A stretch of DNA of 64,000 nt from Isoetes taiwanensis. Its lineage: Eukaryota > Streptophyta > Lycopodiopsida > Isoetales > Isoetaceae. The stretch spans positions 22,334,942-22,398,941 of the forward strand of contig JAJEKV010000002.1 in NCBI GenBank assembly GCA_021234155.1, written 5' to 3'. A program made the position numbers and the translations under genes. Of the stretch, positions 7,703 to 64,000 are shown in pieces. Within the stretch, counting starts at the first letter, position 1. Each line of letters starts with the position of its first letter. A model generated the notes under the pieces. The model saw only the letters and a list, made by a program, of their open reading frames with translations, made no database searches and was not told where the DNA came from.

Positions 7703-8026
7703 GGGTGCTTTTTTGCTTAACCTACCCAACTTTTTGAAGTTATAGCACCTTACCAGCACCTAAATTAACGAGCACGGACGGGCTGGGACGGGCTCATGAA
7801 GGGTGGTGGGCTCATGATGATGGCCTCGACTGGGGCCCGGGCTCATGATGGGTTCTCGACGGCTTCAATTCCGGCGGTCATCATCATAGAATTTTCATAG
7901 CAAAGATCATCATAGAATTCCGTGGTCATCATCATTCGAGCTCTTGAACAAACTTATCTCCCAAGCTTTTTGTATTTGTACTGCTTTTCTTCCTTTGCAA
8001 TTCCGCGGCTCTTTTGCAACTATACC

Positions 8027-9680
8027 ATGAGTTCACCCCAGCTTGAGGTATCGTGATTTTTGCTATCTTTTTAGAAAATGTTTGTGCTTCAAAGAAATTT
8101 ATAACATAAAGTACTCAAATGTAAGTGGTTTTACTTGTTTTATTATATTTCAATTGAAGCCGCCAAGAACACAAGATGAATTTGTTTGAGTTTCGGAAAG
8201 TGGAGTCGTCTGGAAGAAAGCCAAGCCAAATCAAGGCAAAAGAAGTATCAAATGCTGAATTTTTATCAGTTTTTGAAGTTCCTTTGAGGTCCGGGAAGAT
8301 CAACATCAAGGAAATCAAGCCTGCATTCGAGCAGAAGTTCAATGAACTCCTTCGAAAGTATACCGAATGGCCCTACCAACAATGAAGTGAGGACTCGCTT
8401 TGCAAGAGCATTTGTATGGCGAACACCCCTAAGGCTTTTGTATGACCCCGAAAATTACAAGGTAAATTGGGCATCTTTAGCACAGACTCCCATTTTTTCA
8501 GAGTTCATAAGAGTAAAGATCATGAAGTAAATTGTTTTGAAGTTAACCTCAATGTGATTATCAATCACATTAGAAGCTTGTCAGAAATGCAAAAGAAAGC
8601 TGAAGAAGAAATTAAAGGAAAAAAGGCAGCTTTGTTGAAGAAGGTAGGTGCAGTGCAAAGTGCTGAAGCTACTTGCACTTTATTGTACAAGCAAATTTCG
8701 AGAGAAGAGAGAATCTATCAAACTTTACAAAGGCATTTGCCTAACAACCAAGCTTTGGTTGCATACTTGAAGAAAGATGAAGCAAGTTTAATGGCTTTAC
8801 TTTCTGAAACTATTGGGAGTGCTAATGTTTCTGATGCAGAAAAGTTGAAGGAAGAAATCAAATCCTTGGAAGTGAATATTGAAGCATATGGCCATAGGAT
8901 GGAGTTTTGGAATGCAAAGTCCAAACACATATCCGCTATGCAGATTTCATAAAGGTAAGAAGGAACTCAAAGTTCACATGGGTGTTTATGATCCGCCTCG
9001 AGATCAATTTATTGAAAAGATGAAGGTTGTGGTTTGAGTTTTAGCTTGGATGACATGCTTTTCTTATCAAGTTATCATGTGATCATAAATTTCATGTTTG
9101 CTTGCTTTGGTTCTCGCCTTGGATACTATGCATTGTACATAAGGCAGGTTGTGGGGTAGAAGTGCCCCAAGCTTGAGCAAGAACTTGGTTACTTTAAAGC
9201 GTATGAAGATGAAGTAACCGAGGAGTATGAAGAAGAGTCTTCGATGAAGATGTGAAGGTGACAAAGGTCACAAAGGTGCAAGGAAAAAGGTAAAGACATG
9301 GGTGAGGATTCTAACTGTTTGTAACCGAAAGTATGACAAACCTATTTCCAAAGATTTTGTTGCTAAGAGGAAAGGCAAGAAGAAGATTCTTAGGAGCAGC
9401 AACAAGAAAGCAAGATCGAAGTCACCAAGTCCTAAGACCCGAAACTAGTCCTCGAACGTGAGATCCCAACAACTCCTGCTACACCCGTTTCTCCACTTGC
9501 TTCTCCTCTGTACACATGCTTCTCCCTGTTACACACGCTTCTCAAGCATAGCCCAACACATGAAGAGCCTACTCCTTCAAAGTCACCATTCACAGATATC
9601 CAATCTGATGAGGAAGACCTCACTCTTGCAGAGAAGTTTATAAGGAAGCTGGATAAGCAGATTGCTAGCTTTGCAGGTTC
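8027..9680 (+). pseudogene. Accessory gene of the two-gene transposon, copy 1
   Basis: Homologous to the genes at 52575-53900 and 61398-63103. A possible first exon, 8027-8047 (MSSPQLE), ends at GAG|GTATCG; the next starts near 8159. Visible in order: a basic region, then PLRSGKINIKEIKPAFEQKF (about 8280-8340), and after a frameshift near 8360 the PTNNEVRTRFARAFVW block. Next come a heptad-like coiled coil (8560-8930) ending KSKHISAMQ, and remnants of a RING-like Cys/His cluster (CDHKFHV-like, shifted frames, near 9070-9100). The tail is acidic and proline-rich and ends KLDKQIASFAG. Its role in transposition is unknown. Frameshifts and stops make this copy a pseudogene. Confidence 0.65.
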
Positions 9681-10769
9681 AAGTTGAAGTTTGGTTTTGA
9701 AACAATCTCAATGTTAACTTCTCTGTCGGGTAAATTTTGAGTATGATCTGCAATTTTGTGAATATATGCAGGTCTCTCTAAGTTATTGAATATGTAAACT
9801 GCATGTTGAATATGTGACAGGTCTGCAATTTTTTGAATGTGACCATGTCTCAGAACCACTTGAATATATGAACTTTGTGCTTCTTTAAAATTTTGTATAT
9901 TTTTTTCTTCATTGGTTCAGTTCTCTTGTTTATGCAAAGTGTTTTGTACCAGAATCCAAATTCTTACAATTCAAACGATATTCGCAATACCACGTAAGAA
10001 TTAAAACAATTCAAATGATATTCACACGAATTCAATTGATATTCTCAATACCACATGCATACCAAACATCAATTATATTTGCCCTTTCCCATAGTTTATG
10101 GCTTTGCACACACAATCTTAAAGATCATCGAGACCATTCCAAGTGATTATACCACTAAAGAAAATTTGAACACTTCTGTTGCAAATCTTAGCTCCTTTGC
10201 GCCTCGGTCATTGACCAATTTTTGACCTGGTCAATGACGATCTTTTGAAATAGCTAAGTGCATCGACTTGAGAGAAAGTTTATATCTACTTAAGTACATC
10301 TCTCAAGCATATAAACCAGCTGGATTCAACACCTAAATACATTAAGACCTGCTAGCATTTGGCATTTGAAGTACCACGGTCTTTTTCTCGAATTGGGAAA
10401 CCCGGTGCAAACGTAAATGAGCTTCATTCTTGCAAGATCAAGGTATAGATTGGTTGCCATGTGCAACCTGGAGGTCCTGCACCAACTCAATTGAGGGATT
10501 ACCGGATCTGCAACCAAATCTTACATTTCAAAATAAACCTCGCAACTAGTTCTTACTATTCAAACTAGATTCTCAATAGCAAAAAAAGAATGAAACTTTT
10601 CTTTATTACTTGAATATGAATGTTACAATTGAATACAGTTTGGTTAGCACTAGCAATGCTTGTATGCTAGTAAAGAATTCATTTGGTTCCATTTCTCATT
10701 GAAGAGCTCGGTGCAGCTCATCCTCATCTACTAAGCTATCTCGCATAAAGACTACTCTTGTGCTCCAAA
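9681..10769. other. Intergenic part of transposon copy 1
   Basis: This lies between the 3' ends of the two convergent genes. It is AT-rich and holds short irregular repeats: TTGAATATGTGA-like motifs at about 9740-9870 and AATTCAA(A/T)TGATATTC at about 9970-10050. No protein block is recognised. Confidence 0.5.
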
Positions 10770-13700
10770 ACTCGATCTAAAAGATGATCATGAACATCCT
10801 TTGGAAGTTTGTATATGTTTTCACTTACGATGGCACCATATCAAAGCAACACGACATGACCAAGTGGTCAGATGCATTGCACTCTGGTGCATCTTCAAAA
10901 ACAATTCAAATTCACTACCTCCTAAAAACTTATAATACTTACGAGGACCACTTCTCTTCTAGCAAATTTAGCACCCCATGCATCTTTAAAGGCCCTCTCT
11001 ACAATGTGTTTAGGCTTAGTGCATTTGATGATGTAGAAGTCTACACTGAATTGTTGTTGGCCTCGGATGGTACTGCAAAATTATCCCCAACATCAACTAC
11101 ATCAGAAACCCATTCATGATCCCCTTCATAGATGGGACCCTGTAATGTTTCAGCTAGTCTTGGGAGACTGGAATTAGTTGAAATAAACCCAAGATCCTAT
11201 TCTGCTTTTGTTTATGCACTTCCCAAACTTTCAATTTTTGTATAAATTAATCCATATGAGCAACCTGAGTAGGGTCATTGGAATGCACACCCGTCTGATA
11301 CAATGCAACTTTTGAACTCCAATGTCTTGCAATCATGATTTGTCACTTCTATCAACCTCATTGATAGCTATCTCCCAAAAATATCACAAAGGAATCATGT
11401 AAAATAACATGCAATGCAAACAACATGTAAAACCTGAACTACTGTGTACCTGCAAGGATGATCTCCTTCATTGTCACAATCTGACTTAAAATGTGCTCTG
11501 CAAAACACAACTGCATCATGTGCATTCCTTAGTGGTACTGAATTCCTTAGTGGCACCGTTCTTCCCCTGATCTTCTCGGCGGCTCCTTTCTTCTTAACAA
11601 GTTTTCCTTCTCACCAACCTTCTTAAGATGCTCTTCATCTATGCTCTGTCCCATTTTAACTATTGCTATAAGAATGGCAATTGGCAATACAAACTCTATT
11701 AACATTATTTCATCATTAAAAGCCCTGTTACCTTGTCCTCATAAACCTGTTATGTTCAAAAGAAGAATTTGAGCTGAAAAGAATATCTCATTTAAGAATA
11801 ACAATTTGAATTACCTTATCAAATGTCTTCCAATCTACTTGATGGTTCAACTTGTAATCTCTTTCTTTTTGGACAAGTTGGCACTTTGTTTTTCCACAAG
11901 CCTTGCATTTAAGCAGGAGACAATTATGTTGATGCCACTCTTTCTCGATTCATCCTTAGGACATACCAAAAGATCTCCAAAGCTCAGAGGTTGAAGCATA
12001 TGTAGCTTTAGATGCATTGCAGGTTGGTCCTATACCACATACATCAATTGCATGTGCAATTTGGCCCATGGAGGTCCTGATCTAATCTTACTTTGTTTAT
12101 GGCCTGCCTCACAAAGTCAACTCTCAAATGGTAGATACAGCAGACAGAAAGTCTCTATCTTTTACCTTCCCGACATATGGAGGCTTTAGAGCATGGAATG
12201 CTGTAAATGATATTTGAAAGTATGGATATTGCCTTTCAAATCGTTGGAAGAAAACTTGCTGCAGAAACAGCAACAACATATCAACAACCTTAAGTTGAAA
12301 ATCTTAAACCTTAACAATTTGAAAACAAATTGCTTTAAAATTACCCTGTCTCTTCAAGAAAGTGTAGTGCATGCAATATCTTCTTTCCGTAAGTGGCTTT
12401 TATCTTGATGACATGTTTCTTACATAGGAAACTCTTGTATTGTGTCTCCAAAAATCCACCACTAGTTTTCTCTCGTCATAAGAGTTTGTCACATCTAATC
12501 TTATTTTTTTTGAACATGGACCATGGACCCTCACCAAGTTCAGCATCTACTCTTCTTCTTACAGCAGTTGTGACAATCTTTCTGTTCAGGCATAGAGTTC
12601 TGGAGAAAGCTGATTTGTTAATATTGGTATTGACAGCATAAACCATGGCAGCAATTCTTGCCCTCTTAATATCTGTTTTCTTCTCATTCTTATGATCTCA
12701 AAAGAGTTCTTTAAATTCTCCACAATTTTCTTCATTACATTTCATCCTTGGAGTTAGAACAACAAGTTCAGTAGCCACTTTGGCAGCAGACTTAATTATC
12801 TTTCCTATCCCTACAACTTGCATTACCAAGAACCTTTTTCACCTTCATTAACCTTTTTGATAGCATTCTCTTCTTCCATGTGCTTAGATCACCTTGGAGC
12901 AATGCTTCTTCATCTTTGCAATTTCCTTTTCCCTCTTAAGCTCTCTCTCTTTCTCCTTAACTCAGCTCTATACCTTCTAAAAGCATGACAATCTGCTAGA
13001 AAAAAGAATCTGAAATGAAAAGTCAAAGAAACCTTCAAATCATGCAAACCTTGCCTTACCTTGAAAATGAGGTTGATCATGACATTGGGTTCCTTGTGTA
13101 TTATCTTGGTGACACCCTTCATAACAAGAAAGACAACAAAGATTAGCAAAAGAAAAGTTCAAAGTAAATTCAAGGAATCCAATTCCTTGAAATCGACTAA
13201 AGAAGGTTGCACACCTTCTTCACTTTGAACATCTTGAGTTCCCCATTGGCGCCACCCTTCGGACTCTTGAAATCACCTTCATGGTAAGAAGGTTGCAAAT
13301 CTTCATGAAATGCGCACTCTTCATTGTCTCCATAAGGTTGGGATTGTGACAAGAAACATTTTCTAGAATTAAAGCAAACATCAACAAATAAGGAAAGAAA
13401 TCAACAACAAATATGTAAGTTCAAAATTACCCCAATCTATAGGAATTGATGTAGCCATATGTAACGATCTTGTCCAGCTTCTTTTCAGTTCAAAGCAAAC
13501 TTATAGATTAATATGCATTTCAGCAGATACATGAAAATGAAATGCATCATGATCCTCAATTACCATGGTAAATATCTAGCACAAATTAAATTTGCATCCG
13601 TTCTTGAATCGCGACTTATGGTTAACGACAAATTGCATCAACAATTCGGGAACAACTTGCCAAAAAATTTTTCAGTCCGACTCGAAAACTTGGAGGCTAG
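10770..13700 (-). pseudogene. Transposase gene remnant, copy 1
   Basis: The minus strand carries blocks in the same order as copy 2. These are NKSAF (about 12600), GPWSMFKKN (12520), SYDERKLVVDFWRHNTRVS (12450), AFHALKPPYVG (12160), SELWRSFG (11970), WKTFDK (11820), SVPLRNAHDAVVF (about 11520) and EAPECN-like C-terminal sequence (10900). I could not find the DFAEN, SDGC and EHDGA blocks expected between WKTFDK and PLRNAHD. The gap there is too short to hold them, so the catalytic core looks deleted. Stops and frameshifts occur elsewhere. It cannot supply transposase. Confidence 0.65.
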
Positions 13701-14083
13701 ATAGCAGTTTTGCAACATCAAAATTAACTTGATTCTTGCACACGATGCACGAAAGCTTCTCTCCATTCGCCATAGACGTAATTGGAGAAATCTAGCGACA
13801 AAAGAAATTCATGGTAGTTATACTACGAAGAACTTCAAAACCGCCAAATTTACTTTCAAATTGCTTGCGAACATGGCGTCATCACCTCGCACCAACAAGA
13901 CGGATCAACAACCCGCGACGGATTGCTGGCAATTTCACGGGCTTCGGATCGAACGCATTTGGCAGGAGGAAATGGCGGGTGAAGTGCTATGACGAAATTT
14001 AAAAAATTTCACTTGATCGGTCCAAACCCGACCAGCACAAGCGTCGCCACATAAAAAGTTGAGTACCTTAATAAAAAAACACC

Positions 14084-24217: not shown

Positions 24218-24339
24218 CATAAAGTCATGGTATCAAGCATTCTATTGTCTAGAAGTAGCAATTTGAATTTATTGTCAAAACATGACTTTGAACTATGATT
24301 TACGCCACTTCACCCTCCGACGATGGAGGGCAACCCTCC

Positions 24340-25690
24340 GTGCGCAGCACCTTGTTTTTTTTATGCCTTCTCTTTTCCCCACCCTTTTTTCCATGTCTTC
24401 CCTTTTTCTCAACCTTTTACTCTTTTGCCCTTTTCCATGCCTATTTTTCCCTTCTCTTTTCCTCCTTTTCCCACTCTTTTCCTCCTTTTTGTGTGCCCTT
24501 TTCCCTTCCATTTTTCTTTTCTCCTCCCGCTTTCCATGCCCTTTTTTTACCTTCTCTTTTCCATCTCCTCACCATTTCCCTCTTTCCCTTTTCCATGTTC
24601 CCTTTTTTTCTGTTCCCCTTTCCATTTTCCTCCCCTTCCTTTTTCCCTCTCTCTATTTCCCCTTTTTCCATTCTTTTTTCTTTTCTATTCCTTTTCCCAT
24701 GCCCTTTTTTTCCCAATCCTTTTCTTTCTTTCTATTTTTCAACTGCTTCCTTTTTCCTCCTTTTTCCCACTCTTTCCCTCTTCCCCGTGCAATTTTCCTT
24801 TCTTTCAACCCTTCCTTTTTCTTTTCTCTTTTCTTTTCCTCATGTCCTTTTTCCCTTTCCCTCCCTCCATCACTCCCCCCGCTTCCTTTTCCTTTCCCTT
24901 TTTTTTCCGCTTTCCTTTTCTTGATGGGATTTTTTTTCTTTCCTCGCTTTCCTCCTTTTGGCGCATCCTTTTCCCCAGCCTCCCTTCCTTTCCTTTTCCT
25001 TTTCCCTTTTCCATGCCTTTTGCACATTTGTTTTATTCTCTTATTTTCTATACCCATTTTTCCTCTTTCCACCCTTTCTCTCAAGGTTCCTTTTCTTTTC
25101 CCCTTTCTTCACCATTTTCCTCTTCCCCTTTTCTCTCTCATGCCCTTCCCCTTCCCTTTTCTCGTTTCCCTCTTTCTTTTCCTTGTGACCTTTACCCAGG
25201 TTCCTTTCCCCTTTGTCCCTTCCCTTTTCCTCATTTTTCCAACCTTTCACTCTCCCCTTTTTTTTGATGCATTTTTTTCCCTTCCCTTTTCCTCTCTTTT
25301 TTTTCCTTTTTCCTATGGCATTTGTCCCTTCCTTTTTCCTTTTTCCTCCCTCAACGCTTCTCTTTTCCCCTTTTCCCATGCTTTTTTCTCCCCCCCTTTC
25401 CATGCTTTTTTTTCTCCTTCATTTTCTCCTTTTTTCAACCTTTTCCTCTTTCCTTTTTTTTTCATGTCCTTTCCATTTACCTTTTCCACTTTATCTCTTC
25501 CTCCTTCCCTCGTGTCTGCCCTTTTCCCTTCCCCTTTTCGCTTCCATGCCTTTTTTCTCTTCTCTTATCCCCACCCTTTTCCCTTTTTACTTTTTACCCT
25601 TTTCCTTTTTCCCCATGCCTTTTTGCCCTTCACATTCTCTCTTTCCACTTCCCTTTTCCTTTTTCCCTTTTCATTTTACCCTTTCCCCTT
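24340..25690 (+). repeat. 1.35-kb polypyrimidine tract
   Basis: Almost uninterrupted C/T on the + strand, built from variants of CCCTTTTCC and CATGCCTTTTT, with scattered CATG and CAAC words spaced irregularly. It produces long spurious open frames (Phe/Ser/Pro/Leu on +, Lys/Glu/Gly/Arg on -). A shorter relative is at 21040-21255. Such homopurine/homopyrimidine DNA can form triplex structures and is prone to length change. No gene is supported. Confidence 0.85.
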
Positions 25691-25824
25691 AAGAGATCGG
25701 CATGACCAATCACAAAGTGTTGGTAAGTGATGCGGTATAAATCTAGGCCTTCTGATGCATCCGGATGATCTCGGCCATTCAAATTAGGGGCTCGATGCAC
25801 TACTTACTGGTATAACATTATAAT

Positions 25825-37900: not shown

Positions 37901-39249
37901 AAGTCCTCCTTCACGATATTGGACTCAAGAAGCAACCTCTGCTCTTCAGAAACAATGCGACGCACCTTAGTCAACACGACCAATTGCATATCCTTCTGAA
38001 AGGGCAATGGGTGTCGTGCAAAGAATGAAGAAAAGTGATGATGAAAATACTGCTTAAGATTCACCGGATCGGAGATAAGAGCGCCATCTGGCAACACCAA
38101 AGAATATATAGAAGTGACGAGTTTCCTTCTTCTTGCAGCCGCAAAAAAGAACCGGGTACATCTATCTCTGTCCTTGAACCACTGCAACCCTGCCTTCACC
38201 TTGCCTTCAGTAACTTTTACAGTTTCCATAGCCTTGATCTGAGATAATAACTCCTTTTCTCTGACTCCACTAGTATGGCCACGAGCGCGGAGTACTTCTA
38301 ATTCCTGGTACAATGCAGTCAATAGTCCTCTAGTTTCAGCAGCTCTGACTCTCCCATATTCTTTTGCAAATGACTTCACTGCAGACAATGCTGCGACAAC
38401 CCTAGACATGCCCCTACGAGGTGAGAAGGCCCGAGACCAAGCCCGACTACAGCCAAGTTTGAACTCATCATCCTCCAAGTACTTGCAATTAAGCTTAAAG
38501 TAGGTCCTGGTAGGTCGATGACAATTAGCCACATTATTAGTTAGGAGTTGTGGATTATGATCAGACACGGAGCTATCCAAGAGATTTGAGCGACGAAAAT
38601 TCGCTAGCCGAGCAGCTGCACAAGTATTAAAGTATCCTCTATCATGCCTTGCATAAGCTCTGCCAGCTCCTGTCCAACCATTACACCACGTAAAGGACTG
38701 ATCACCATCAATCTCTATAAGCTGACCATCATGTAAAAGGCGTAGCCATTGTTCTCGCTCGAATCCTTGCACCACTTCAGAGCCGCGACCACTTCTATCT
38801 CTTTCCAACTCGACCATATTAAAGTCGCCAACGAGCAACCACGTAACATTCTGCCCAAACTGAAGAACTTTACTCCTCAGAGTTGCTCACAAAGCACCAC
38901 GCTGACGAGGTCCATTATGAGCATATACATTTATCAAACCCCATTCTTGGCCCTTATCTTTCCATTTGATTATTATCCACTGCCCCAACCTATCTGTTTG
39001 AGTAAAAGTGACATCCACAGAAGACCCACATGCAGTAAGCACACCAGCCTTAGATGCATCAGCAGCAGACACCAAGACATTATAGTCACGTCCAAATACA
39101 TTAGCTACTTTATGTACATCACCTCGGCGACATTTATGCTCTTGAAGGCAACAAAAGGTCGTGGAAAACTTAGACAGGTAAAGAGACAACCTGCTTCTTT
39201 TACTTGGGGAAGAAGCCACTCCCCTCACATTCCAAGACAACGGGTTCAT
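34957..39249 (-). pseudogene. LINE ORF2: endonuclease, reverse transcriptase, zf-RVT
   Basis: The order of domains is that of plant L1 elements. The AP-type endonuclease starts MNPLSWNVRG with LLVGDFNM and SDHNP (39249 to about 38500). The reverse transcriptase has RPITLLSSVYK, LDFAKAYDSVDWDF, GIRQGCPLAP and YADD at about 36505-36516. A zinc-knuckle zf-RVT domain (CPLCQQRVESIEHCFFLC, near 35160-35215) follows. Defects: an in-frame stop at about 38888 between endonuclease blocks, a stop just before YADD, several frameshifts between 36420 and 35790, and the 644-bp insertion at 36853-37496 after GHRA. No RNase H domain is seen after zf-RVT. The remaining frame at 35784-34957 is open. Confidence 0.88.
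36853..37496. mobile_element. hAT-like non-autonomous element in the LINE
   Basis: 644-bp insertion within LINE ORF2. Ends are CAGGGATAGGTTCAATACG and the inverted CAGGGATAGGTTCTATACG, with a perfect 8-bp target duplication CTGCTCTA at 36845-36852 and 37497-37504. CAGGG termini with 8-bp duplications are typical of the hAT superfamily. The interior is non-coding and full of CAGACGCTGAA-like words in both orientations, plus poly-T and poly-A runs that could fold back. Removing it with one CTGCTCTA joins the LINE reverse-transcriptase frame. Confidence 0.92.
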
Positions 39250-40162
39250 GTGGCCAAAATATTATGTTCCACCTCCATACCAATAGAGCCAGCATCAACC
39301 ATGTCCATCTCGCATGGTTCTGAAGGGAGGTCAGCCCACCTCGTCCTGGAAATTGGCAATAGGGAGCCTCCTCTCTGTTTCACCCTTCCATTGTTTTGTT
39401 CAGCACTTGGTGAGGGAGAGCCTCCTCTCTGCTCTACCCCTCCATTATTTTGTTGGGTAACTGGCAAGGGAGAGCCTCCTCTCTGCTCCACCCTTCCATG
39501 CAAATTATCAGAATCGCTCATGACTTGAGACACATGTTGACTAGCCTTATTGCGTGCAGCTCTTTTCCAATTAACATTTGTCCATCCCTCTTGGGCATTT
39601 TCATGATGCTCTTGAACATTTTCATGCCGCTCTTGCAATTCCTGGATCTTCTGTAACTTAGCCCTCGCATCCTCATCAAAAGCGGAAGAATGCACAATCT
39701 TCTGTGGGATAGTGGTTTTAGCAGCAGATGGAGTAGCAACAACAGAGGTAGCAGTAGCATTGGCAGAAGGGACAACAGAGGGTAAAGGGGACTCAACAGA
39801 GGTAGGAGGCATAGAGGAAGAAGGGACCATTGCAGGACGATCTCTCTTAGCACGAAAATTTGCAAATAAAGCAAGTTGAGGAAATAAATCAGCAAGCTGA
39901 GGGCCATTGAGCAATTGCAAAGCATACTTCAGAAAGATAGGGCCACTTTTCACAACCACACAGTCAGGAAGACCGCGACCAGAAGGAAGAGAGACACAAA
40001 TTTTAGCAGCATCAACAATAGAATGGGCCAGATGAGTACCCAGACCATTAGCAATACTGATAAGAAACTCCGGCACCAAGAGATCAGGAGGAAGATTAGG
40101 AATAGAAAACCAACATGGCATCCTAAGAGCACGAGTCATACCAGGAGAAAATCCAGGCGATG
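39246..40162 (-). pseudogene. LINE ORF1, 5'-truncated (nucleic-acid-binding protein)
   Basis: An open frame that begins inside the domain common to plant L1 ORF1 proteins (DUF4283-like; PCWFSIPNLPPDLLVPEF and LPSGRGLPDCVVV near its start). The true N-terminus is missing because the element is 5'-truncated; the apparent Met at 40187 lies in the target duplication. The C-terminal part (about 39480-39340) contains three 20-residue tandem repeats of the type VEQRGGSPLP..QNNG. ORF1 overlaps the start of ORF2 by four bases. ORF1 products of L1 elements bind element RNA. Confidence 0.75.
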
Positions 40163-40560
40163 TTGCATTAGAGTTTCTTGTCTGCATTAGAGTTTCTTGC
40201 CCATGTTGCTAAGCAAAATCTCCCCACAATTCACCCCTTCTACTTTGATGCAAATTTCTTTGCCAATAGTTATATATGTCAAAAAGCAAACACGACACCT
40301 CAGTATTAGCAAATCCTTTCCATCTCTCTGTGCATGATTCATTGTCCCCTATTTACTCATTATGCATGATTCACTGTACCCTTTAGTGACAGATTTGGAT
40401 TCAACTGGCCGACACTTGTCCGTAGTCATGATATGTATAGCATTTGTTTGGAACATGTTTCTTTTCCCATAGGTGGCAATTCTATAAGCATTTGATGACC
40501 CCTTTTTCCACTTTTTCCATAAATTTAATATTGTTGAAATTGTAGGTGGTTCATCACACA
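40163..40560 (+). repeat. Repeat R2, copy B, right part
   Basis: Resumes R2 after the LINE: TTGCCCATGTTGCTAAGCAA, CAATTCACCCCTTCTACTTT and GATGACCCCTTTTTCCACTT match 33770-34070. The start carries two tandem copies of the target sequence TGCATTAGAGTTTCTTG. Confidence 0.8.
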
Positions 40561-46745: not shown

Positions 46746-47122
46746 CAAAAGAAATTAAATTTATACTAGAACTCAAACTCATGAGCACTAGCGCACAACT
46801 GCGCACATTGTATGGGTTATAAAGACAAATGATTGTCTTTCCATTTCAAAATACATGCAGTCATGTTGTTGGAATGGCATCGGCTTGTGGAGTTCGGATA
46901 GCACGATCACATTGCAATTGGCCCTAACATATTTGATGCATTTTAGAGTTAACTATCTTCATGAGACCAATGAATTAGGTTAGCTATTCCATGCTTGGCA
47001 ATGATCTACACGGCCAATAGCACGATGACTTATGTGACCGATAGCCTAACAGATATTCCTTCCCGACAAATGGTCGTCCAATAGGCACCTCCACAACTGT
47101 GCACATTGTATGGCTTATAAAG
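46745..47122 (+). repeat. R1 repeat copy d and start of copy e
   Basis: One complete R1 unit is followed by the start of the next (CAACTGTGCACATTGTATGG). The latter is interrupted at ATAAAG by transposon copy 2 and resumes at 54252. Confidence 0.8.
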
Positions 47123-47415
47123 GGGTGCTTTTTTTATTGACCTACTCAAAAAATCATGTCGCGACATTGGTGCTGGTAAGGTGCTGATACCCGTCATAAA
47201 ATTTTTTCGACCGCCCTTCACGTTTCGTCAAGCACTTCACCCGCCATAGCCAGCCTTGAGCGGGAGTCAAGATCCATCATTCCTGCTATTTTTGGCCAAG
47301 TCATCGATCCCGAAATTTTAGTTTGCAATCTCCAATTCGAATTGGAATTTCCCCGCCCAAATCAAATGCTGCACCTTCAGAATTATGCTGTTTCAGCGTT
47401 TCTTGAAGCACAACT

Positions 47416-50400
47416 ATGGTTCTTGAGTTGAGAGATGAATTCCTTGCTTCTGTGTCCAGGCATTGTGCGCAATTTGATGCCCGGGGATTGCTGGCGGGCA
47501 TGCAAGAGTTCATCAACAATTCCAAGCGATTTCTGGAGTGCTGTTCACAATTTGCAGAAAATTACCTTGAAGAATCACCTACACAAATCGAAGCTGGTAC
47601 TCACATTGAAACAGTGGATTTCACAAGGAATGAAGAAACTACATTTGAAGACGAAAATTCAGATCAAGAATTTCATCATGAAGATGAAAGACCAGGTATT
47701 CCTTGTTAAATGCCTCTGCTATTAAATTGGTGAATTTTTTTGTTCTAAATTGCTGACTGATGTAATGTAATCGCTTTCAAAGGAAAAGATTTCATTCAAT
47801 GGTGCTGAATTTATGGACTTTGAACATGATTTCAACATGTCGAGTATGCAATTTAAATTTGTTACTTGGTTTATAAAAAGTAAACTGACATGCTAAAAAT
47901 ACAGGAGAATATGGTGGAATATCAAATGAGGATGATGAAGTTATGGATGTTGGCAATGCTGTAGAGGTTGGATCTGACTGTCATAATACAGGTACTTGCT
48001 ATAATAGAGGTATTTGCATTGATAAATTTCGCTCGATTTGTAGTTAGAATTGCGCGGTGCTTGCAAACCAAGAGAATTATGAAACCGCTTTCAAAAAAGA
48101 CAGTCGAAATCGAGGATTCAAAGACGTAAAAAAAAAAGAGAAGTGGATGCTGCAACTGGCAATTTAGGTGCAGTTGCAAATATGCTACCTTGTTGGTAAG
48201 AAAGGTTCTTTCAGCAGGTTGGAAGAAAAGAAAGTTGTCAAAAGAATTAGGCAAGCTTGTGAACGAATTGTGTGAGAATGCTACATCCAAGAAAGAGTGG
48301 AAATTCTAGGGGTGCTAGAAAGTGGATACCGAACTAGATCTCTCAAACAAAGAAAGAATTAAACACAATGAAAACAATCATTAACAATTTGAGGGAGTCT
48401 TTTGCAGCTCATAAGTATTCAAAAAAATACGATGTGTGGAGAGCAAGAAGTGCCTTTGCAATGACTTTTACAAATAATGGTGAAACTAACAAGTCCGCTT
48501 TTGCCGTGCAAATGAATCAAATAGGAAGATTGTGTCATTCTGAAGAAATAGAAGATTGGTCAAGAGCATGGTAGTGGACCATGGTCCATGTTCAAGAAGA
48601 ATACTAGATTTGATGAGACTCTCTTATGATGAGAGGAAGCTAATAGTTGACTTTTGGAGAGATAACACACGAGTGTCTCCATGCAAGAAACATGTTATAA
48701 GGATTAGAGTGGTCAAGGATTCAAGATCATGCATCCATTACACTTCATGGAGGATACTCAAAGTTAGTTTGATTGCACATGCCGGATGTTGTTACAATTC
48801 TTTGTAATTGGCCGTAATTCTCACTGTAATTGCTTTAATTGTCAGAATTCTTGTGTCCTGCTTTTGCAGGTTTCATTTTACCGTTTGAGAAGGGAGTATC
48901 CTAAGTTTGAGGTTTCTTTCTCAAGATTTCATGCCTTGAAACCCCTTTATGTCGAAAGTAAAGGACGACGAGAGACGGTCTTTGTTGTGTGTATCATATG
49001 AGAGCAGATTTTATTCGACTTGCAATGAACAAAGTAAGACATGATGAAAAAATTCATGGTCCAAATTGTAAATGCACGCGTGTGAAGTTTGTGGTCCCGA
49101 CCAACATGCATGGCAAGGAAGAGCACCTATGCTTCAACAAGTGAGCTTTGGAGGTCTCTTATTTGTCCAAGAGATGAAAGTGAAGAATGGTATGCACATG
49201 ACCCGCCTAACTCTCAAGTGCAATAGTTGTGGACCTAGCAAGCTGCCAACATGTCCAAAAGAAGTGAATTTCAAAAATGGTGTGCGGTGGAGTGGAAGAC
49301 ATATGACAAGGTACTAAGATTGTTGCTTGCTTTTTTATGCTTCATTATGGTGTAGCTTTATTTTTTATTTCAGATTTGTTGTAGATATATGAATCAGAGA
49401 AGAACCCGATGGCAAAGGTGGTTATAAGCCGGAAAAAAACCAAATCACTAAACCGGTTTTACAAGACCACAAGTGTTTGCTGATATTTTCCGAAATGCTA
49501 GAACAAAGGTTTGAAAAGAATTCATTCCACACAACTATGAGGCTAGATGGCGTGGCGTGCAATTCAAGGAGTGTTTGGAAACATTTCCAAAGGATGCAAT
49601 AGTTTCGATGATTGATTTTGCTGAAAATTACAGCTTCAAAATTCAGCAAGAAATTTAGAGTCCGGTGCATTGAAGGAATGATCGCACACAATTTTAGTGC
49701 ATATATCATATAGACATGCCACAAAAAGTGATGACCCTAAATTGGATGAAGATGAGAGAAGAATCATCAAAGAAACTCACTTCTACATTTCGGATGACGG
49801 GGAACATGACACTTTGTTTATGCAACATTGTTTGAACAAATCATGCAAAGATTTTTGTCCAAAAAACAAATCAAGTACACAAGAGACACATTGTTTGGTC
49901 CGATGGATGTTCTAGCCAAATGGAAAGGAAGTAGAACATTTTACTTTCTAGGAATAAATTATCAAACTAGTGGCATCCCAATAACTTGGAATTATTTTGC
50001 TTCTTATCATGGGAAAGGTAACTTTCATTTTCAAGCACCTAGAGTTAATGTTCATTTCCAGCACTAATCTGATAGAGAAACAAGTGAACATGATGGTGCC
50101 TGAGCTGTCATTAAGAGAGCCCTAACTCATGAGATGTTAAAACGAAATTCATTGCCACTTAGAAATGCACATGATGTAGTGGTTTTTGCAAAAAACATTT
50201 CGGTGACAACATCACAATGGAAGGCAAGGGCATATAATCTGTGTGTCTTTGAACTGCTATTTTTTATACATTCCAATTTGCCGAGCTTGTGAATGCTTGT
50301 GTTTGATGATTTTTTTGGGAAGTTGGCATAGGAGATGTTGATAGAAGTGAGAGGTATGATTGTGCAACTCTATCTGGCTCTAGCAAATTTCATTCCATCA

Positions 50401-51055
50401 GGCCTACTCAAAGAACTGACCCGACTCAAGTTGCACATATGAACTTCACTTGTTTCTGCCATAACTGGCCGGTTAGGGAAATATGCAAAGTGTCCCTACA
50501 TTGCTAGAATAGGCACGTGGTCATACTCAATTAAAACCCGTGGGTGCCGACTATGTTGAGGAAGTTGTTGAAGGCCCCTGTTTTTGAAGGAGATCATGAG
50601 TGGAAATCGATATCATTGTTTGTTGGAGATAACTTTGTCATGTCAATGCCGAGCCTAACAACAAAGAAAAAGTAGACTTTTATATTTTAAAATGCACTAG
50701 AACAAAGCATGTTATAGAGAAAGCATACAAGGATCCTTGGGGGCAAAAGTTTGGTAGGAATGAAGTAGTTGTCACTGGAAAATATTACAAGTTGATTAAT
50801 GGTAACTTGTATGAATTGCTAGAACATGAGCCAGAGTGTATGTATACCCATTTGGTTCTGGCTGTTAATTTTGATATGACCAGATTGAGGAACAACCTGT
50901 TTCAGCTCCCTGACATAGTGGAAGATCAAATTATGGATAGCTTGCATCAAAGCACATCCATTTATGCTCAAGAAGTTTTAGAGTCTAAAGGAAATGATCT
51001 GAAAGGAAAGAAGAAATCAAAAGCAAAAGCAGCAAAAGGCAAAGATGCTTTGTGA
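47416..51055 (+). pseudogene. Transposase-like gene of copy 2 (DDD-type candidate)
   Basis: Several exons. The N-terminal acidic part (MVLELRDEFLASVSRHC, from 47416) is followed by a basic region. Later blocks are SYDERKLIVDFWRDNTRVS (48624), RFHALKPLYVE (48930), SELWRSL (49145), a Cys pair CNSCGPSKLPTC (about 49220) and WKTYDKV. Then come three blocks with candidate catalytic acids: IDFAENY (Asp near 49614), VWSDGC (Asp at 49902) and EHDGA (Asp at 50092), with YFASYHGKG between the last two. The C-terminus (YELLEHEPEC to KSKAKAAKGKDAL) is basic. Related blocks occur in unnamed transposase-like proteins of animals. Stops and frameshifts (one between SDGC and HGKG, a TGA after EHDGA) indicate an inactive gene. 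Confidence 0.7.
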
Positions 51056-51059
51056 TTCA

Positions 51060-51790
51060 AATACTTAACCTTAGACCAATTTGTAAATTGTGAAACATAT
51101 TGTAAATTGTAAATCATATTGTAAATTTGTTGTCAAATATGTTGTCATAGTTCATATGTAATCAAACTGGTTGTCAATCATAACCATAAATATATTGGTT
51201 GTAAACATAAACAATCATATTGGTTTTCAATCATAAACATAAACATGTAAACCATAAACATGTAAACATAAACATGTCAACCATAAACATGTAAACAATC
51301 ATATTTGTTGTCAATCATAAACAATCATAAACAAATATGTAACCATAAACAATAATATGTAAACAATCATATGCTAGATAGCTATCAATCATAAACCTTA
51401 TATTCATGTACACCTTATATTCATAAACCTTATTCATTGCTATTCTTCATATGTAAACCTTATTCATAAACCTTATTCATTGCTATTCTTCATATCATAT
51501 AGACCTTATTCATAAACCTTATTCATTACTATTCCTATTATACATAAACCTATTGCTATTCATATGTAAACCTTATACATAAACCTTATGTAAACCTTAT
51601 GTAAACCTTATTCATATGTAAACCTTATGTAAACCTTATTCATATGTAAACCTTATGTAAACCTTATTCATATGTAAACCTTATATTAATGTAAACCTTC
51701 TACATGTAAAAACCTAATGTAAAACTTATGTAAAACTTATATTCCATAATGCAAACCTTATATTAGTGTAAACCTTGCTATTACATAAAT
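51060..51790 (+). repeat. AT-rich minisatellite between the convergent genes
   Basis: Irregular tandem copies of ATAAACATGTAAACAT (first half) and TAAACCTTATTCATATG (second half) separate the transposase stop from the accessory gene. Unit length drifts, so this is a degenerate minisatellite. Copies 1 and 3 lack an equivalent. Confidence 0.8.
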
Positions 51791-52574
51791 ATACAAAAAA
51801 CATGTCAACACTATGGAACAAAATTGTGTTGCATGTATACAAGATCCACATAATATTTAAAAAAAAAAAACATCCTCATAATATCCTCCTGGTAGATGCT
51901 GATAAGATGCTTGGTAGATGCTGAGAGACTGCTAAATTCCAGAAAGTCTTGCCTTTTTAAAAGCAAGATAATTTTCCTCCAGTGTACCACCTGGAAGGAT
52001 TTCTTCTTCATTCTCCTCCCCTTTATCCCGTGATAAATCTGCTCCTATATCCCCGTGATAAATCTGCTCCTATATCCTCTTCAAAGATCATTGTTCTTTA
52101 CATCTCCAAAGATCTTGATCTTCTATAGGCTCCAACCTTGCATCTTCAAAGAAGCTTTCCACAAAGAATGTTAGACACATTTCCTGCAACAAGAAATCAA
52201 TATTTAGTACAACTAAATTGAACATGGACTACTATTCAAAATTTCGATTAGACTTACCATTTTTCTTCAGTGCTCCAAGCTTGGTTCTTGCAAGGGTCTT
52301 CTTGTCCGCAGTTGTCCAAAGGTCTTTGGCGGGTCTTCTTATCTGCCGGGTTGTCCAAAGGTGGGGGGGGTCTTCTTGTCCAAGATTAATTTAAAATTAA
52401 TGTAACTTAAAGAGAAGTTATAATACTAAAACTAAATGTGTACCTTTTATGGGAGATATGTGAGCAAATTTAATGACTCAAATTTGTCAATATCTATAAC
52501 TGTTCAAATAGAATTGAAGTTAGCACAAAACAAATACATTACAAGATACATTGAACAAGAATACTTACTTGCAA
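51791..52574. other. Intergenic part of transposon copy 2
   Basis: AT-rich, with a local direct repeat around 52028-52080 (GTGATAAATCTGCTCCTATA twice) and another around 52305-52380 (GGTCTTCTT.TC, TTGTCCAAAGGT). It may include 3' exons or UTR of the accessory gene, which I could not define. Confidence 0.45.
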
Positions 52575-53900
52575 CAGGTTTCGAGTCTTTCTTGGTGCTG
52601 GCCCTTGTCTTCCTTTTCTTAATTTTTGCGAAATTTTTCGCTTTAAATTCAAAGACTTGCAGTTTATTCTACAAAGTGGTGTTTGCTTTCAACTTCATCC
52701 TTCTCGCTTCTTATCTTCATCACTTTGTTTGCATTTTCAGTTTCTTCTTCATCTTCATAGTTAGAGTCCTCTTCAATCACAATATCAATTCTTTGAATCC
52801 CAGCACTGCAAAATGTTGCTTGGGACTTCCTCTCCACAACAGGAACCACACAAAGGCATAGTTTTCAAAGACAGGTTGAAAAGCAAAACACATGGTACTT
52901 ATGTCCACATTGGTTTATTTTAACAAACAGGTCATATTCTTGAGGAAAACAAAGGCCACATGCCTGACATACATCAGTAGTTAGCAAAGGCAAAGAATAC
53001 ACACCCATACCCAACTCCATCCGAGCTTTGGTGCTTTCACTATCTTGCTGCATGGCTGAAATATGCTTAGCCTTTGCATGCCACTTAGCCATTGATTCCT
53101 CAAAGGTATCTATTTCATCCTTCAGCAAAGAAATTTCTTTACGAATGTGTTCTTCCCCTTTAGAATCTATTTTCAGAAGTGCTGACTCCAAAAGCTCTCG
53201 CATAACTTCTTCATCATTCTTTAGTTTTGCAATAGCATCAACTTCTTCTGGAAAATCACGTTCAAGGTCTTCTCTGGACTTCTGCTTGGCCTCTATATTT
53301 TCATATATAGCTTTGCAAGCTATGTCCGCTCCAAAGAATAGCACCTTCTTTCCTCAACAAAGACTCTTGTTTTGATAATAGCAACTCCTCTGCATCTCTC
53401 TTCATCTCAAAGAAGCTTACCCAAGTGATCCAAAAAATAAGTTGCTATTCAAAACAAGAGCTGCTGGTCTCTCCCTTAGAAATCTGGCGCTCAGATGTTC
53501 GATAAGCTTCTGCAGCAAAACTAGCCCAGTTCACTTTGAATTGCCCAGGGGTTGACAAAGCTCGTTGGGTATTACTCCAAGCAAAAGCTCGAGCAAAGGT
53601 TACCCTAACCTCATTGTTGGTAGGCTTGCTTTTTCGATAAATCCTTTCCAAAGAGGTCATGCGGACGCGGTGGCGAACCGGGGGCCTAACAAATTTTAAA
53701 TTTATCTTTCCTTTCCGAAGTGGGCACGCTGCCGGACTTCAAGAAAATCACGCGGCCGGAAACATCCTTCGCCTTCAAATCCTTTGGCTTCTTCCCTTCA
53801 TTACACAAACCTCTGTTTGTGTGAAATTCATACTCGCCTTGCGAAAAGCGGCTCCGATAACATCAAACAAACTTTTTTAGTTCAATATCGGTAGATAAAG
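52575..53900 (-). pseudogene. Accessory gene of the two-gene transposon, copy 2
   Basis: Read on the minus strand: RKGKINLKFV (about 53700), then KSKPTNNEVRVTFARAFAWS (53630-53570) and FKVNWASF. A predicted coiled coil follows (about 53330-53060), ending MAKWHAKAKHISAMQQ. Next is a Cys/His cluster CQACGLCFPQEYDLFV...CGHKYHVFCF..C (52970-52870), like a RING or PHD finger in spacing, and an acidic then basic tail (EEDSNYEDEEETEN, KKRKTRASTKK). The order is the same in copies 1 and 3. Such fingers often bind proteins or ubiquitin ligase partners, but the role here is unknown. Frame changes upstream of KPTNNEV and near the tail suggest decay. Confidence 0.65.
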
Positions 53901-54251
53901 AAAAATCATGAGAAATAGAGGGATTTTTACCTCACGGACTTCAATACCATAGCTAGAATCTTTGGAATTCCTAAGAGTAGCGTAATGAACCGAACTTCCC
54001 AACCCAATTACACTTTCAATTGAAAAATCAAAATCATAATCAAAATGATCACGATTCGAAAATCCCTAAATCGCACCTAATCAATTACGCCTGAAAAACT
54101 TTTTAGCCCCAGACACCTGCAAAAATGATGAAGGGCGCCCTTCAAAAATGATGAAGGGCGCCCTTCTTCCGTCGAAAAAGCTGAAAATAGGTCTTTGGCC
54201 GGTCTTCTTTGAGCGTCCGCTAAATTGGGTAGGTCAATAAAAAAAGCACCC

Positions 54252-54480
54252 AAAGACAAATGATTGTCTTTCGATTTCAGAATATATGCACATTGCAATT
54301 GTCCCTAACGTACTTGGTGCATTTTAGGGTTAACTATCTTCATTAGACCAATATATTAAGTTAGCTATTCCGTGCCTGGCAACAATCTACATGGCCAATA
54401 GCACGATGACTTATGTGACTGATAGTCCAACAAAGATTCCTTCCCGACAAATGGTCGTCCAATAGGCACCTCCAAAACTT
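54252..54480 (+). repeat. R1 repeat copy e, right part
   Basis: Resumes R1 immediately after the transposon: AAAGACAAATGATTGTCTTT to GTCCAATAGGCACCTCCAAA. With 47090-47122 it makes one normal R1 unit. Confidence 0.85.
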
Positions 54481-61013: not shown

Positions 61014-61397
61014 GGGTGTTTTTATGCTTGACATACCCATATTTTGGTTCGATCAGCACCCGATCAGCACCTTGAATCGCGACTGTCAGACGAAGGGCTG
61101 GGCTGTCCGTCATTATGGTGAAGGGTACACTCTTCATCATTCGTCATCGATTTTTGAGCGCGAATTTTCTTCGAGCCATCCCCTGTTTTTTCATAATTTC
61201 GAATGCATCATTGCCATCCTCGCTTTAAATCTATTCAGTCAATCAAGCTTCTCCTATTCTCTGTTTTCCGAATTCATCAAGCAAGAACAGATTTGTGATA
61301 GCGCTCAATTCCGGCGAGGTTGCTGTCCTTCTCTTTTGTGAAGCTCTCACATTTCCCTTTGGCCTATGAATTTCTGACCTTTTTTTTTGCTTGCAGG

Positions 61398-63103
61398 ACA
61401 TGCTGATGGCGAGAACGGAATATGAATTCCATGTTAACCGGCTCTTTCTAACAAAGGGAAAAAGCCCAAAGAAATTAAGGCAAAAGATGTTACAGAGGCC
61501 GATTTTCTTCGAGTTTGGAAGATGCCACTCAGGAAAGGGAAGATTAACCTGAAATTTATTCTACTGCCTATGAAACCCAAATTGAACGACCTTCTTGGAC
61601 GGATTTACCAAAAATCCAAGCCCACTAACAATGAAGTTAGAGTCACCTTTGCTAGAGCTTTTGCCCGGCTAATTCCCTCGGCATTTGCAAATCCCGAGGA
61701 ATATGCTATCAACTCGGGCATCCTTTGCTGTCACGATGCTTTTAGGACTTCGAGCGGCGGTTGTCGGTTAAGCAAGAGGGTAATAGCTACAAAGAACAAC
61801 AACAATGCCATACTCAATCAGCTTAGGAGGCTTGCTGCCATGAAAGCTTTAAAAAGAAAACGATATTTTGATGAAAGAAGAAGATTATTTGAGGAAGGAG
61901 GATGCTCTCACTCAAAGGCGACTTTCGGATCTTTGCAATAGAAGAGCGGATATCCGAAAAAGTGAAGGACAGAGGGCTTTAGAAATAGTCGCTGCATTTA
62001 ACAAGAAGCTATTCAAAGGCTTAAAGCACAAGAAGAAATGTGGCGAGACCCGCTGGCCAAAGACCATAAATAAGTTGGATAAAATGGATTGAAGAATTTG
62101 AAGGCCGACATCATCGAACTCAAAGAAGAAGTTGATGCTATTGAAAAGCATATGAAGATTTGGCATGCCAAATGCAAACATGTTGCTTTTCTCAAGCATT
62201 CTGAGTCCAACGTAAATCGGATGCACCTAGGTATGGGTTCCTATGACATGCCTTTCTTGGATAATAAGGATGCATGTGAAGCATGTGGCCTTTTGTTCTC
62301 AAAGATTATGAATTGCATGTCAAATTAACATGTGGTCACAAATACCATGTTTTTGCTTTTCTCACTGTTTTGATCAGATGCATTGCCTTTTTGTACCTAC
62401 CGTCATGAAGAAGAGGTTCCAGGAAAGATATTGCAAGAATTGGTATATAAAGAATACCATCCCTGTTGAAAGTGACACGAAAAGTGAGAATGATAGTGAC
62501 ACCGAAGTAACAAGGAAGACAAGAAAAACAAGATCTTTGAGGACCAAAAAAAGAGGTAAAGAAGAAGATGATAGCAGCACTTCTCAGACACGCCACTGCC
62601 GCTTCCTCGACTTCATTGCAGAGAGTTGCAAAGAAGAAGACCAGATCTGTGAAGAAGCTCAAACTGGAGAAAGGTAATGACTTTGACTCTATTTTTTATT
62701 TGTTTTAAAAGGTTTCATGTACTGTAGCTTGTAGAAATATTTTGCAGGTTTTATTGATGTGGACAAGTTAAGTCCAGTGAAATTTGCTCATGTCAGCCCT
62801 CTCAAAAGCACAAGGAAATCACCAAGGTTGAATGACAACCTGCTGAAAGGTGATGTTACCACTCCTGAGAAGAAGAAAATAGGTTCAACAGGTAACATAA
62901 CTTATTTATTTATGAAATGTTTGTATGCTTAACTTTTTTGTTTCATTCCTTACTGATTTCTGCTACAATGCAATGCAGAAAATGTGAATAATCTTGCTGC
63001 TGAACCTCAGGGTGCTGAACCTCAAGACAAAGCAGATATTGAGGAAGTGCTGAAGTCACCAGCACTTGGAGATTTGGCTGAAAGCAAAGATGATTCGAAG
63101 TAG
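61398..63103 (+). pseudogene. Accessory gene of the two-gene transposon, copy 3
   Basis: An acceptor TTGCAG at 61392-61397 opens an exon. Visible blocks are KGKINLKFILLP (61540), SKPTNNEVRVTFARAFARL (61615-61670), LRRLAAMKALKRKRYFDERR and a coiled coil ending KHMKIWHAKCKHV (62140-62190). Next are a RING-like cluster CEACGLLF...CGHKYHVFAF (62270-62355) and an acidic/basic tail with TRKTRKTRSLRTKKR. Later exons give FIDVDKLSPVKFAHVSPLKS (from about 62748, GT after 62890) and EVLKSPALGDLAESKDDSK with a stop at 63101-63103. Small frame changes (near 61880, 62090 and 62310) interrupt it. Tail motifs such as SPLKSTRKSPR may bind DNA or chromatin; this is inference. Confidence 0.65.
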
Positions 63104-63629
63104 CGATTCAAGAAGTGAACCCTGATATTACCTTGGCAAAGTATTGCCAGGACAAACAAGTGGAAAAGAAGTGAATGGTTTTATGAAAGAAAACCACCAA
63201 TTTTCAAATGTAGGTGGTTTTCTATGGTTTTCAAACTTTAAGTTATAACTACTTAACAGTGCTGCTATGACATGCTCATTTCTGTGAAATGGAGCTGTAC
63301 ATTTTGGTTATTTTTGTAAACCCTTCAGCACCTTTTAATATATGATCTACAGTTTTAACCAATGTCTTGTTTAATACTTGATTGTTTTAGAAAGCAATTG
63401 GATTGTGTTTAATTGTAAATAAGATTGTGTCATAGAAAGCAATTGGTTTGTTTGTGGAAGTGGAAGGTTTGTTTGTGAAAGTGGATTGTGTTTACTTGTA
63501 AATGAGATAATGGATTGTGAAAGTGGATTGTGTTTACTTGCAATTGGATAATGGTTACATTTTTACAATGTCAATGTGTTTAGAATTCAATGGTTGTAAT
63601 TTCTGTAAATTCAATGGTTACATTTTTAC

Positions 63630-63675
63630 AATGTCAATGTCAATGTCAATGTCAATGTCAATGTCAATGTCAATG
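63630..63675 (+). repeat. (TCAATG)n microsatellite
   Basis: About seven perfect TCAATG hexamers lie in the gap between the convergent genes of copy 3. Related short motifs (ATGGTTATAATT) follow. Confidence 0.9.
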
Positions 63676-63743
63676 GTTATAATTTCTGTAATGGTTATAA
63701 TTCCATTTCTGTAATGGTTATAACCTGAAATGGTTGGAATGGT

Positions 63744-64000
63744 TTATATTTCATTGTCTCCATTCTTTCTTCTTCTTTTTTTTGCAACCTTTGCACTGCT
63801 TTGAGTTTGTGATTTTGACTCAACTGCATCTTGTGCCAAGATGGTAGTGTTTTGTGGCAAGTTGTCCATGATGTGATCATGCACATCTTCATCAAGCTCA
63901 TACTGGTTATTTCCCACGTGATGCATGACAAAGTTCACTGCAGTAACTAAATGACTGTAAACACTACATTCAGGATCATGCTCCAGCAACTCGTATCTGC
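63744..64000 (-). pseudogene. Transposase C-terminus, copy 3 (cut by window edge)
   Basis: A minus-strand frame open to the window edge gives YELLEHDPECSVYSHLVTAV, DVHDHIMDNLPQNTTILAQD and a basic end (AKKRRRKNGDNEI). It aligns with the C-terminus of the copy 2 transposase (YELLEHEPECMYTHLVLAV, DQIMDSLHQSTSIYAQE). Within the window it has no stop, so it could belong to a better-preserved gene. The catalytic part lies outside. Confidence 0.75.

Follow-up and report, generated by a model that had tools for sequence, protein, structure and literature searches.

Transposons of the piggyBac and Kolobok groups combine short inverted ends and a DDD/E transposase with TTAA duplications, Academ elements carry additional XPG-type nuclease/helicase domains, and MuDR (mudrA/mudrB) has a transposase gene with a convergent second gene, together with 9-bp duplications, long ends and a MULE transposase. 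As described in the sections of the sources cited here, piggyBac makes 4-bp duplications (PMC10045372), Academ elements average 5565 bp in bivalves (PMC10294476), and Sola elements have a DDD transposase, 4-bp target-site duplications, lengths of mostly 2-9 kb and terminal inverted repeats of 11-1124 bp (PMC10741241). Sola occurs in a moss, Physcomitrella, and seems to be uncommon among flowering plants (PMC10741241); Sola1 is described from Physcomitrella (PMC9033089), and a second gene, Fanzor1, is present in some Sola2 elements (PMC3627910). Here we analyse a 64,000-nucleotide stretch of the genome of Isoetes taiwanensis (G000:C1018:22334942-22398941; hereafter the window), in which an element of 7129 bp, the second of three copies and called copy 2, carries a putative transposase gene (gene 1) and a convergent gene for a RING-type finger protein (gene 2). 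The whole is best explained by a cut-and-paste DNA transposon lineage recently active in this lycophyte, and we put the probability of that explanation, including its mechanism and a placement near Sola or in a new superfamily beside it, at about 0.82. Copy 2 is laid out as follows, in window coordinates.

47119..47122, no strand: left target-site duplication AAAG (flank comparison, empty sites)
47123..47145, plus strand: left terminal inverted repeat, 23 bp (end comparison; 112 genome matches versus 0 in the control)
47157..47166, no strand: left-end palindrome TGTCGCGACA, of the GTC-N2..3-GAC type
47169..47174, plus strand: subterminal GGTGCT, first of a pair 11 bp apart
47180..47185, plus strand: subterminal GGTGCT, second of the pair
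48048..48614, plus strand: N-terminal region of gene 1 (tblastn)
49515..50187, plus strand: putative catalytic core of gene 1 (DFAEN / SDD / SDGC / EHDGAG), frame broken (tblastn; alignment A1 of relatives)
50310..51052, plus strand: C-terminal region of gene 1, a Cys-rich stretch followed by a conserved domain (tblastn)
52655..53876, minus strand: gene 2 (N-terminal domain, coiled coil, RING-H2-like finger), convergent to gene 1 (tblastn; alignment A2; model of the relative L030)
54229..54251, minus strand: right terminal inverted repeat, 23 bp (end comparison)
54252..54255, no strand: right target-site duplication AAAG (flank comparison, empty sites)

The ends of copy 2, GGGTGCTTTTTTTATTGACCTAC, are inverted and identical over 23 bp, with a mismatch at base 24, and AAAG stands on both flanks. 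When the flanks are joined, the resulting sequence matches five unbroken places in the repeats of the window, in each of which AAAG, or a version differing in one base, stands only once. These results bear out an earlier note on the window, which had claimed perfect 23-bp inverted repeats, AAAG duplications and an empty site for this copy and had proposed a search of the host genome with its termini. That search, over 1,658,258,908 bases in 1110 contigs, found the 23-mer, at up to two mismatches, 56 times forward and 56 times in reverse, and never in the control. Roughly 33 pairs of terminal inverted repeats could be picked out by eye among the matches, from which 20 copies were fetched by distance and not by duplication. 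All 20 have perfect 4-bp duplications, including AAAG, ACTC, ATGG and GGTG, and they measure between 264 bp (L021, which consists of the two ends alone) and 7355 bp, with L022 at 3331 bp. The left 278 bp are 96-100% identical (40 scored of 178 candidate matches). The core of gene 1 is partly or wholly gone through internal deletion in L010, L013, L021 and L022, and the gene-2 region is wholly covered in 18 of the 20, L022 keeping a quarter of it and L021 none. Copies with only one of the two genes, which the earlier note had named as a sign against its proposal, are thus confined here to exceptions made by internal deletion. Between the convergent genes of copy 2, at 51081-51700, lie AT-rich tandem arrays with units such as TATGTAAACCT, whose length varies among copies. 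On host contig C13, five identical left ends in the same orientation fall within about 33 kb (C13:119235-152508), which suggests a local duplication array.

Both ends carry a subterminal signature, surveyed in 25 elements (the 20 fetched copies, all three copies of the window, L025 and L030), most of them from one family. At the left end, 20 of the 25 have an exact GGTGCT-N5-GGTGCT pair starting 46-47 bases in from the tip; at the right end, 20 have an exact AGCACC-N5-AGCACC pair (read from outside) starting 41 bases in. Sixteen elements carry the exact pair at both ends. The GGTGCT pairs of the two ends thus share one strand of the element, as direct and not inverted repeats. A GTC-N2..3-GAC palindrome stands 34-35 bases inside 24 of the 25 left ends and none of the 25 right ends. 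The spacing of the right-end motifs differs in L030, and the right-end pair of copy 2 is altered by CAG-type changes. Because most of the surveyed elements are of one family, the test across families was a scan of the host genome. The left form, GGGT-N41..45-GGTGCT-N5-GGTGCT, had 630 matches and the right form, GGGT-N35..39-AGCACC-N5-AGCACC, had 634, each with a single match in the control; the left form with GTC-N3-GAC ahead of the pair had 437 matches and a control of 0, under gap limits slightly different from those of the 630-match scan. Among the first 100 or so ends listed are clearly unlike terminal sequences, namely GGGTCAAAGC, GGGTATAAGC, GGGTAAACGC, GGGTCTTTTT and GGGTGCTTTT, and the signature therefore crosses families. 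The same-strand GGTGCT pair together with the left-only palindrome is a new observation of this analysis.

Pairing by this signature brought in 14 elements of other families, in which both end signatures are accordingly present by choice; 12 of them have a perfect 4-bp duplication, compared with 11 of 868 in a shifted-window control. The two without a duplication may be false pairings or recombinants. For L025, L030 and copy 3 the scan required at least three of four matching bases, and hence their duplications are not independent; in five of the eight stretches scanned (L024, L026, L027, L028 and L029) the ends were not found within the fetched sequence. The same signature bounds miniature elements of 246-284 bp (L062-L069), seven of eight with perfect 4-bp duplications, and more than 20 left/right end pairs about 280 bp apart, seen by eye among the matches listed, are miniatures of this kind. 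The 4-bp duplications proposed in the earlier note therefore extend beyond the family of copy 2, while its GGGTG ends hold for the families in the window: related families begin with GGGT and continue with other bases, so that copies lacking GGGTG, on which the note had rested a possible objection, do occur. At the level of sequence, GGGT...ACCC inverted ends, 4-bp duplications and the gene pair are demonstrated across families, along with deleted, miniature and near-identical copies.

The window holds two further copies of the element, both in inverted orientation relative to copy 2:

7703..14083, minus strand: copy 1, catalytic core missing, duplication AACT/AACC
7744..7760, minus strand: AGCACC pair of copy 1, 11 bp apart
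8185..8943, plus strand: gene 2 of copy 1 (tblastn)
10739..12715, minus strand: gene 1 remnants of copy 1, N- and C-terminal parts (tblastn)
61014..64000, minus strand: copy 3, running past the window to C1018:22402657, duplication AATT
61055..61071, minus strand: AGCACC pair of copy 3, 11 bp apart
61403..62463, plus strand: gene 2 of copy 3 (tblastn on L031)

Copies 1 and 3 have the same convergent gene pair as copy 2, as the earlier note had said of all three, and belong to families other than that of copy 2. Also as described there, the flanks of copy 1 read AACT and AACC and empty-site matches exist, at two unbroken places with a junction less clean than for copy 2; the first G of one end is absent. 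With the L024 core as query, copy 1 gave no tblastn match at E<=1e-6, and the core is also missing from the tblastx matches, so copy 1 is a deletion derivative. Copy 3 could be completed from the host genome as C1018:22395955-22402657, 6703 bp with an AATT/AATT duplication.

Gene 1 appears to encode a transposase whose core is RNase H-like, its putative catalytic residues being the D of DFAEN, the D of SDGC and an E or D of EHDGAG, as judged from alignment and a structural model. The core returned 6512 first-look candidates in the host genome (a rough count), with many open frames of more than 200 residues among the 150 scored, and the family of copy 2 is one of many related families. Alignment A1 holds 25 natural open cores, aligned unrepaired; six of the 31 core open reading frames aligned over at least 120 residues were left out (L003, L009, L029, L031, L033 and L039). 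Its conserved blocks are VIDFAEN, HFYISDD..HDTLF, WSDGC..QFK, HGKG and EHDGAG. D64, in DFAEN, is invariant and D158, in SDGC, nearly so (at least 90%). Of the twelve rows that carry EHDGAG in frame, all have D199 and 11 have E197, L045 having K there; this makes DDD as possible as DDE. An intron separates HGKG from EHDGAG in copy 2-type families (read through in L028, L044, L048 and L032) and is missing from L024-type families; the L023 row reads into it in place of EHDGAG. Cys-rich stretches, noted by eye, lie on either side of the core. Within gene 1 of L029, at L029:4082-6073, runs a long C/T-rich low-complexity stretch with open frames of 300-400 residues.

The modelled core comprises a strand (58-65), a helix (71-81), two strands (88-97 and 111-122), a helix (129-145), a strand (152-156) and two helices (167-179 and 201-215), an order that would be RNase H-like with an extra helix after the first strand. 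In this weak model D64 ends strand 58-65 and D158 lies just past strand 152-156. The conserved D, D and E/D residues agree with the DDD/E-type transposase of the earlier note; the fold model is weak. The structural neighbours are RNase H-like, Argonaute/PIWI first (best Z 7.8), with RNase H and RuvC lower by Foldseek; IstA is the one transposase noted among the top Foldseek rows (rank 5, E 0.019, TM-score by query 0.23). None of these neighbours reaches a trusted score, and we claim none as a specific relative. Pfam scans of gene-1 pieces and of the 25 cores gave weak matches, none above cut-off; among them an IFT80 beta-propeller match (E 3.3e-5) appeared in three of 25 cores and was absent for L028, L044 and L032 scanned singly. 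The Ginger and IS3EU groups have an integrase-type core that Pfam can detect, and no such match appeared in the scan of the 25 cores, the absence of a Pfam match being weak evidence. The PDB sequence search gave no match better than E 0.18, and no relative was confirmed in phage records (tblastn, one piece), viral contigs (one piece and A1) or prokaryote genomes (A1). Certain animal hypothetical proteins may have similar DFAEN, SDG and HGK-DG blocks, which would be a lead to relatives. The ratio of nonsynonymous to synonymous substitution (dN/dS) of gene 1 is 0.04-0.14 in four pairs with a proportion of synonymous differences (pS) above 0.1, and 0.13-1.83, on few changes, in four pairs with pS up to 0.07.

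Gene 2 lies convergent to gene 1 in all nine loci fetched for gene 1 (L023-L031; tblastn E<=1e-6), in some of them recognised through the finger only. These loci were taken before the gene-2 results, seven for the gene-1 core, L023 as a member of the copy 2 family and L031 being copy 3; six of the seven core-chosen loci had long open frames, and L030 was chosen for lower identity. The second gene-2 query came from L029 itself, which the first query also matched. In the host genome gene 2 has 2751 first-look candidates, a rough count, of which 128 were scored. Its large exon encodes a conserved domain of about 110 residues at the N-terminus, followed by a long coiled coil and the finger. The L030 model predicts a helical N-terminal part, one helix of nearly 100 residues and a finger block with a predicted local distance difference test (pLDDT) of about 54-75, at 68.8 overall and a predicted template modelling score (pTM) of 0.37. 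In alignment A2, which omits L055 and in which the open frames of L059 and L061 stop before the finger, gene 2 can be aligned across families at 21-46% identity to L030. The RING-H2 spacing, C-x2-C ... C-x-H-x2-H-x2-C ... C-x2-C, is complete in L025, L026 and L030. A fold search with the gene-2 model found coiled-coil proteins, the Arkadia RING ranking 11th at E 0.32. The dN/dS of gene 2 is 0.12-0.36 in four pairs with pS above 0.1 and 0.70-1.2, on few changes, in two pairs with pS up to 0.07; the L056/L053 pair is past synonymous saturation and gives no ratio. Sequence comparison thus supports purifying selection on gene 2 in the informative pairs and, in line with the earlier note, supports gene 2 as a regular part of the element. 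Among the listed matches in openly licensed literature there was no description of such a gene pair.

The broken frames of copy 2 call for a separate explanation. Near-identical repeats are not easily repaired by short reads. Among 17 near-full copies, the fraction of sites off the majority is 0.61 for CGG, 0.49 for CCG, 0.48 for CAG and 0.44 for CTG, followed by 0.28-0.38 for six other CG-containing trinucleotides and 0.06-0.26 for the remainder. The differences fall in 255 short segments (at least four differing copies per column) and include recurrent replacements such as CTG to CTTTG (L003-L020 and window 47123-54251). As far as the cited sections describe it, the Isoetes taiwanensis assembly (1658.30 Mb, 204 scaffolds and 909 unscaffolded contigs) was built from Oxford Nanopore v9.4.1, Illumina and Bionano data (PMC8566536), and for Listeria there are reports of R9.4 errors linked to base modification at GCAGC and GCTGG motifs (PMC10687267). 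Ordinary decay was rejected as the main account, given that the differences peak at CHG and CG sites in an R9.4.1-based assembly. The clustering most likely reflects nanopore errors at methylated cytosines, with real mutation at methylated cytosines as the alternative. Taken together, the CHG/CG clustering, the R9.4 error reports and the poor repair by short reads indicate that errors in the assembly may account for the broken frames of copy 2. Nanopore errors may likewise disrupt many other frames of this assembly, and plant transposons that look dead in an R9.4 nanopore assembly may have been misread.

On the reading that this is a recently active cut-and-paste lineage, the gene-1 protein would bind both ends through the terminal repeat and the GGTGCT pair, whose two members, about one helical turn apart, would present the same face of the helix. 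The RNase H-like core with its D, D and E or D would then excise the element, which would be joined to target DNA with a 4-bp stagger. Since the GGTGCT pairs lie on the same strand and the palindrome stands before the left pair only, such a complex could distinguish left from right, using the strand of the pairs and the left palindrome. For the gene-2 protein, with its coiled coil and RING-H2-like finger, the case is weaker: it may dimerise and act as a ubiquitin-ligase-type cofactor of transposition; it might remodel or assemble the transposase complex or remove host silencing factors. To our knowledge, the accessory proteins of plant transposons mostly have no established job, and a RING protein kept beside a transposase across families at less than 30% identity offers a direct, testable case for control of transposition or of host silencing through ubiquitin. 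In turn, the asymmetric signature of the ends is a simple annotation handle, also for the 246-284-bp miniatures, where profile libraries see nothing.

Several observations weigh against parts of this picture. The exact GGTGCT pair is absent at one or both ends in nine of the 25 surveyed elements, two of the 14 other-family elements have no duplication, and L023, a member of the copy 2 family outside the 20 fetched copies, has a right end short by three bases and no readable duplication. The core model is of low confidence (pLDDT 55.7, pTM 0.58), and a PDB fold search with it gave nothing at Z >= 8 or Foldseek E <= 0.001. The finger has C-x4-C as its final Cys pair, instead of C-x2-C, in families near copy 2, and Pfam RING models matched five of six gene 2 proteins, all below cut-off (best E 1.2e-4), for which reason we call the finger divergent or RING-like and not plain RING-H2. 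In four very close pairs, where changes are few, dN/dS is 0.70-1.83; among the distant pairs several approach synonymous saturation and one exceeds it. We infer the role of gene 2 in transposition, from sequence and model, with less support.

As to placement, the group looks like a sparsely described branch of cut-and-paste transposons in an early plant lineage. It is Sola-like, its structure being nearest to that of Sola, or else it stands beside Sola as a new superfamily. That they form a plant branch of the Sola superfamily, with a DDD transposase, 4-bp duplications and an accessory RING gene, has something near an even chance. Their 4-bp duplications agree with this (all 20 fetched paired copies and 12 of the 14 elements of other families), as do a size of 7129 bp and terminal inverted repeats of 23 bp (compared with mostly 2-9 kb and at least 11 bp in Sola), a third catalytic position that could be the D of HDGAG, giving DDD, and, so far as the sources describe them, a moss host and a known second gene, Fanzor1, in some Sola2. 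The fit is one of descriptive features, from which shared descent with Sola would be a conjecture, and the RING gene goes unmentioned in the sections on Sola cited from PMC10741241, PMC3627910 and PMC9033089. A new superfamily of eukaryotic DDD/E transposons, defined by GGGT termini, same-strand GGTGCT pairs, a left palindrome and two genes, we put forward tentatively. It would account for an end signature common to families with otherwise unlike ends, for the lack of relatives in prokaryote or viral contigs and for the lack of a Pfam match above cut-off or a PDB sequence match better than E 0.18; yet its structural features overlap those of Sola, and Pfam may lack models for rare transposase superfamilies, so that an absent match says little. 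The bolder form of this proposal, a two-protein superfamily in which a DDD/E transposase has an obligate RING ubiquitin-ligase partner and the ends are distinguished by same-strand GGTGCT pairs and a left palindrome, appears doubtful.

Membership of Academ, which the duplication length of 3-4 bp quoted in the earlier note would allow, is improbable, for the extra nuclease/helicase domains of that group were not seen in the scanned pieces, which cover part of the exons. Least probable is that gene 2 is a captured host gene or a passenger outside the system. Gene capture is common in plant transposons, but a passenger would hardly be found convergent to gene 1 in nine of nine loci fetched for gene 1, alignable across families (21-46% to L030) with dN/dS of 0.12-0.36 in four informative pairs, and with 2751 first-look candidates in the genome.

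Elsewhere in the window, 34957-40208 on the minus strand holds a zf-RVT domain (E 1.2e-10) and a weak DUF4283 match (E 0.0056, below cut-off), and by these matches is likely to be the remains of a retrotransposon without long terminal repeats (non-LTR). At 24267-25730 an open frame of 487 residues runs from stop to stop; other long frames on both strands overlap it, and it has no Pfam match at E<=0.01.

Set beside the known systems, the elements resemble Sola in their 4-bp duplications, size range, possibly DDD-type core, moss example and the extra gene of some Sola2, and differ in a RING gene and an end signature that are not in the parts of the Sola descriptions compared. With Academ they share short duplications (3-4 bp according to the earlier note) and, on the sections cited, a similar element length, whereas its nuclease/helicase domains were not seen in the scanned pieces of these elements. 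Short inverted ends and a DDD/E transposase recall piggyBac and Kolobok, and for piggyBac the 4-bp duplications do as well, at least in the part of the source cited, but the duplications here are not TTAA, examples being AAAG, ACTC, ATGG and GGTG. As an analogue in mechanism, MuDR, also from plants, likewise pairs its transposase gene with a convergent second one; it differs in its 9-bp duplications, long ends and MULE transposase, while the second gene described here has a RING-type finger.

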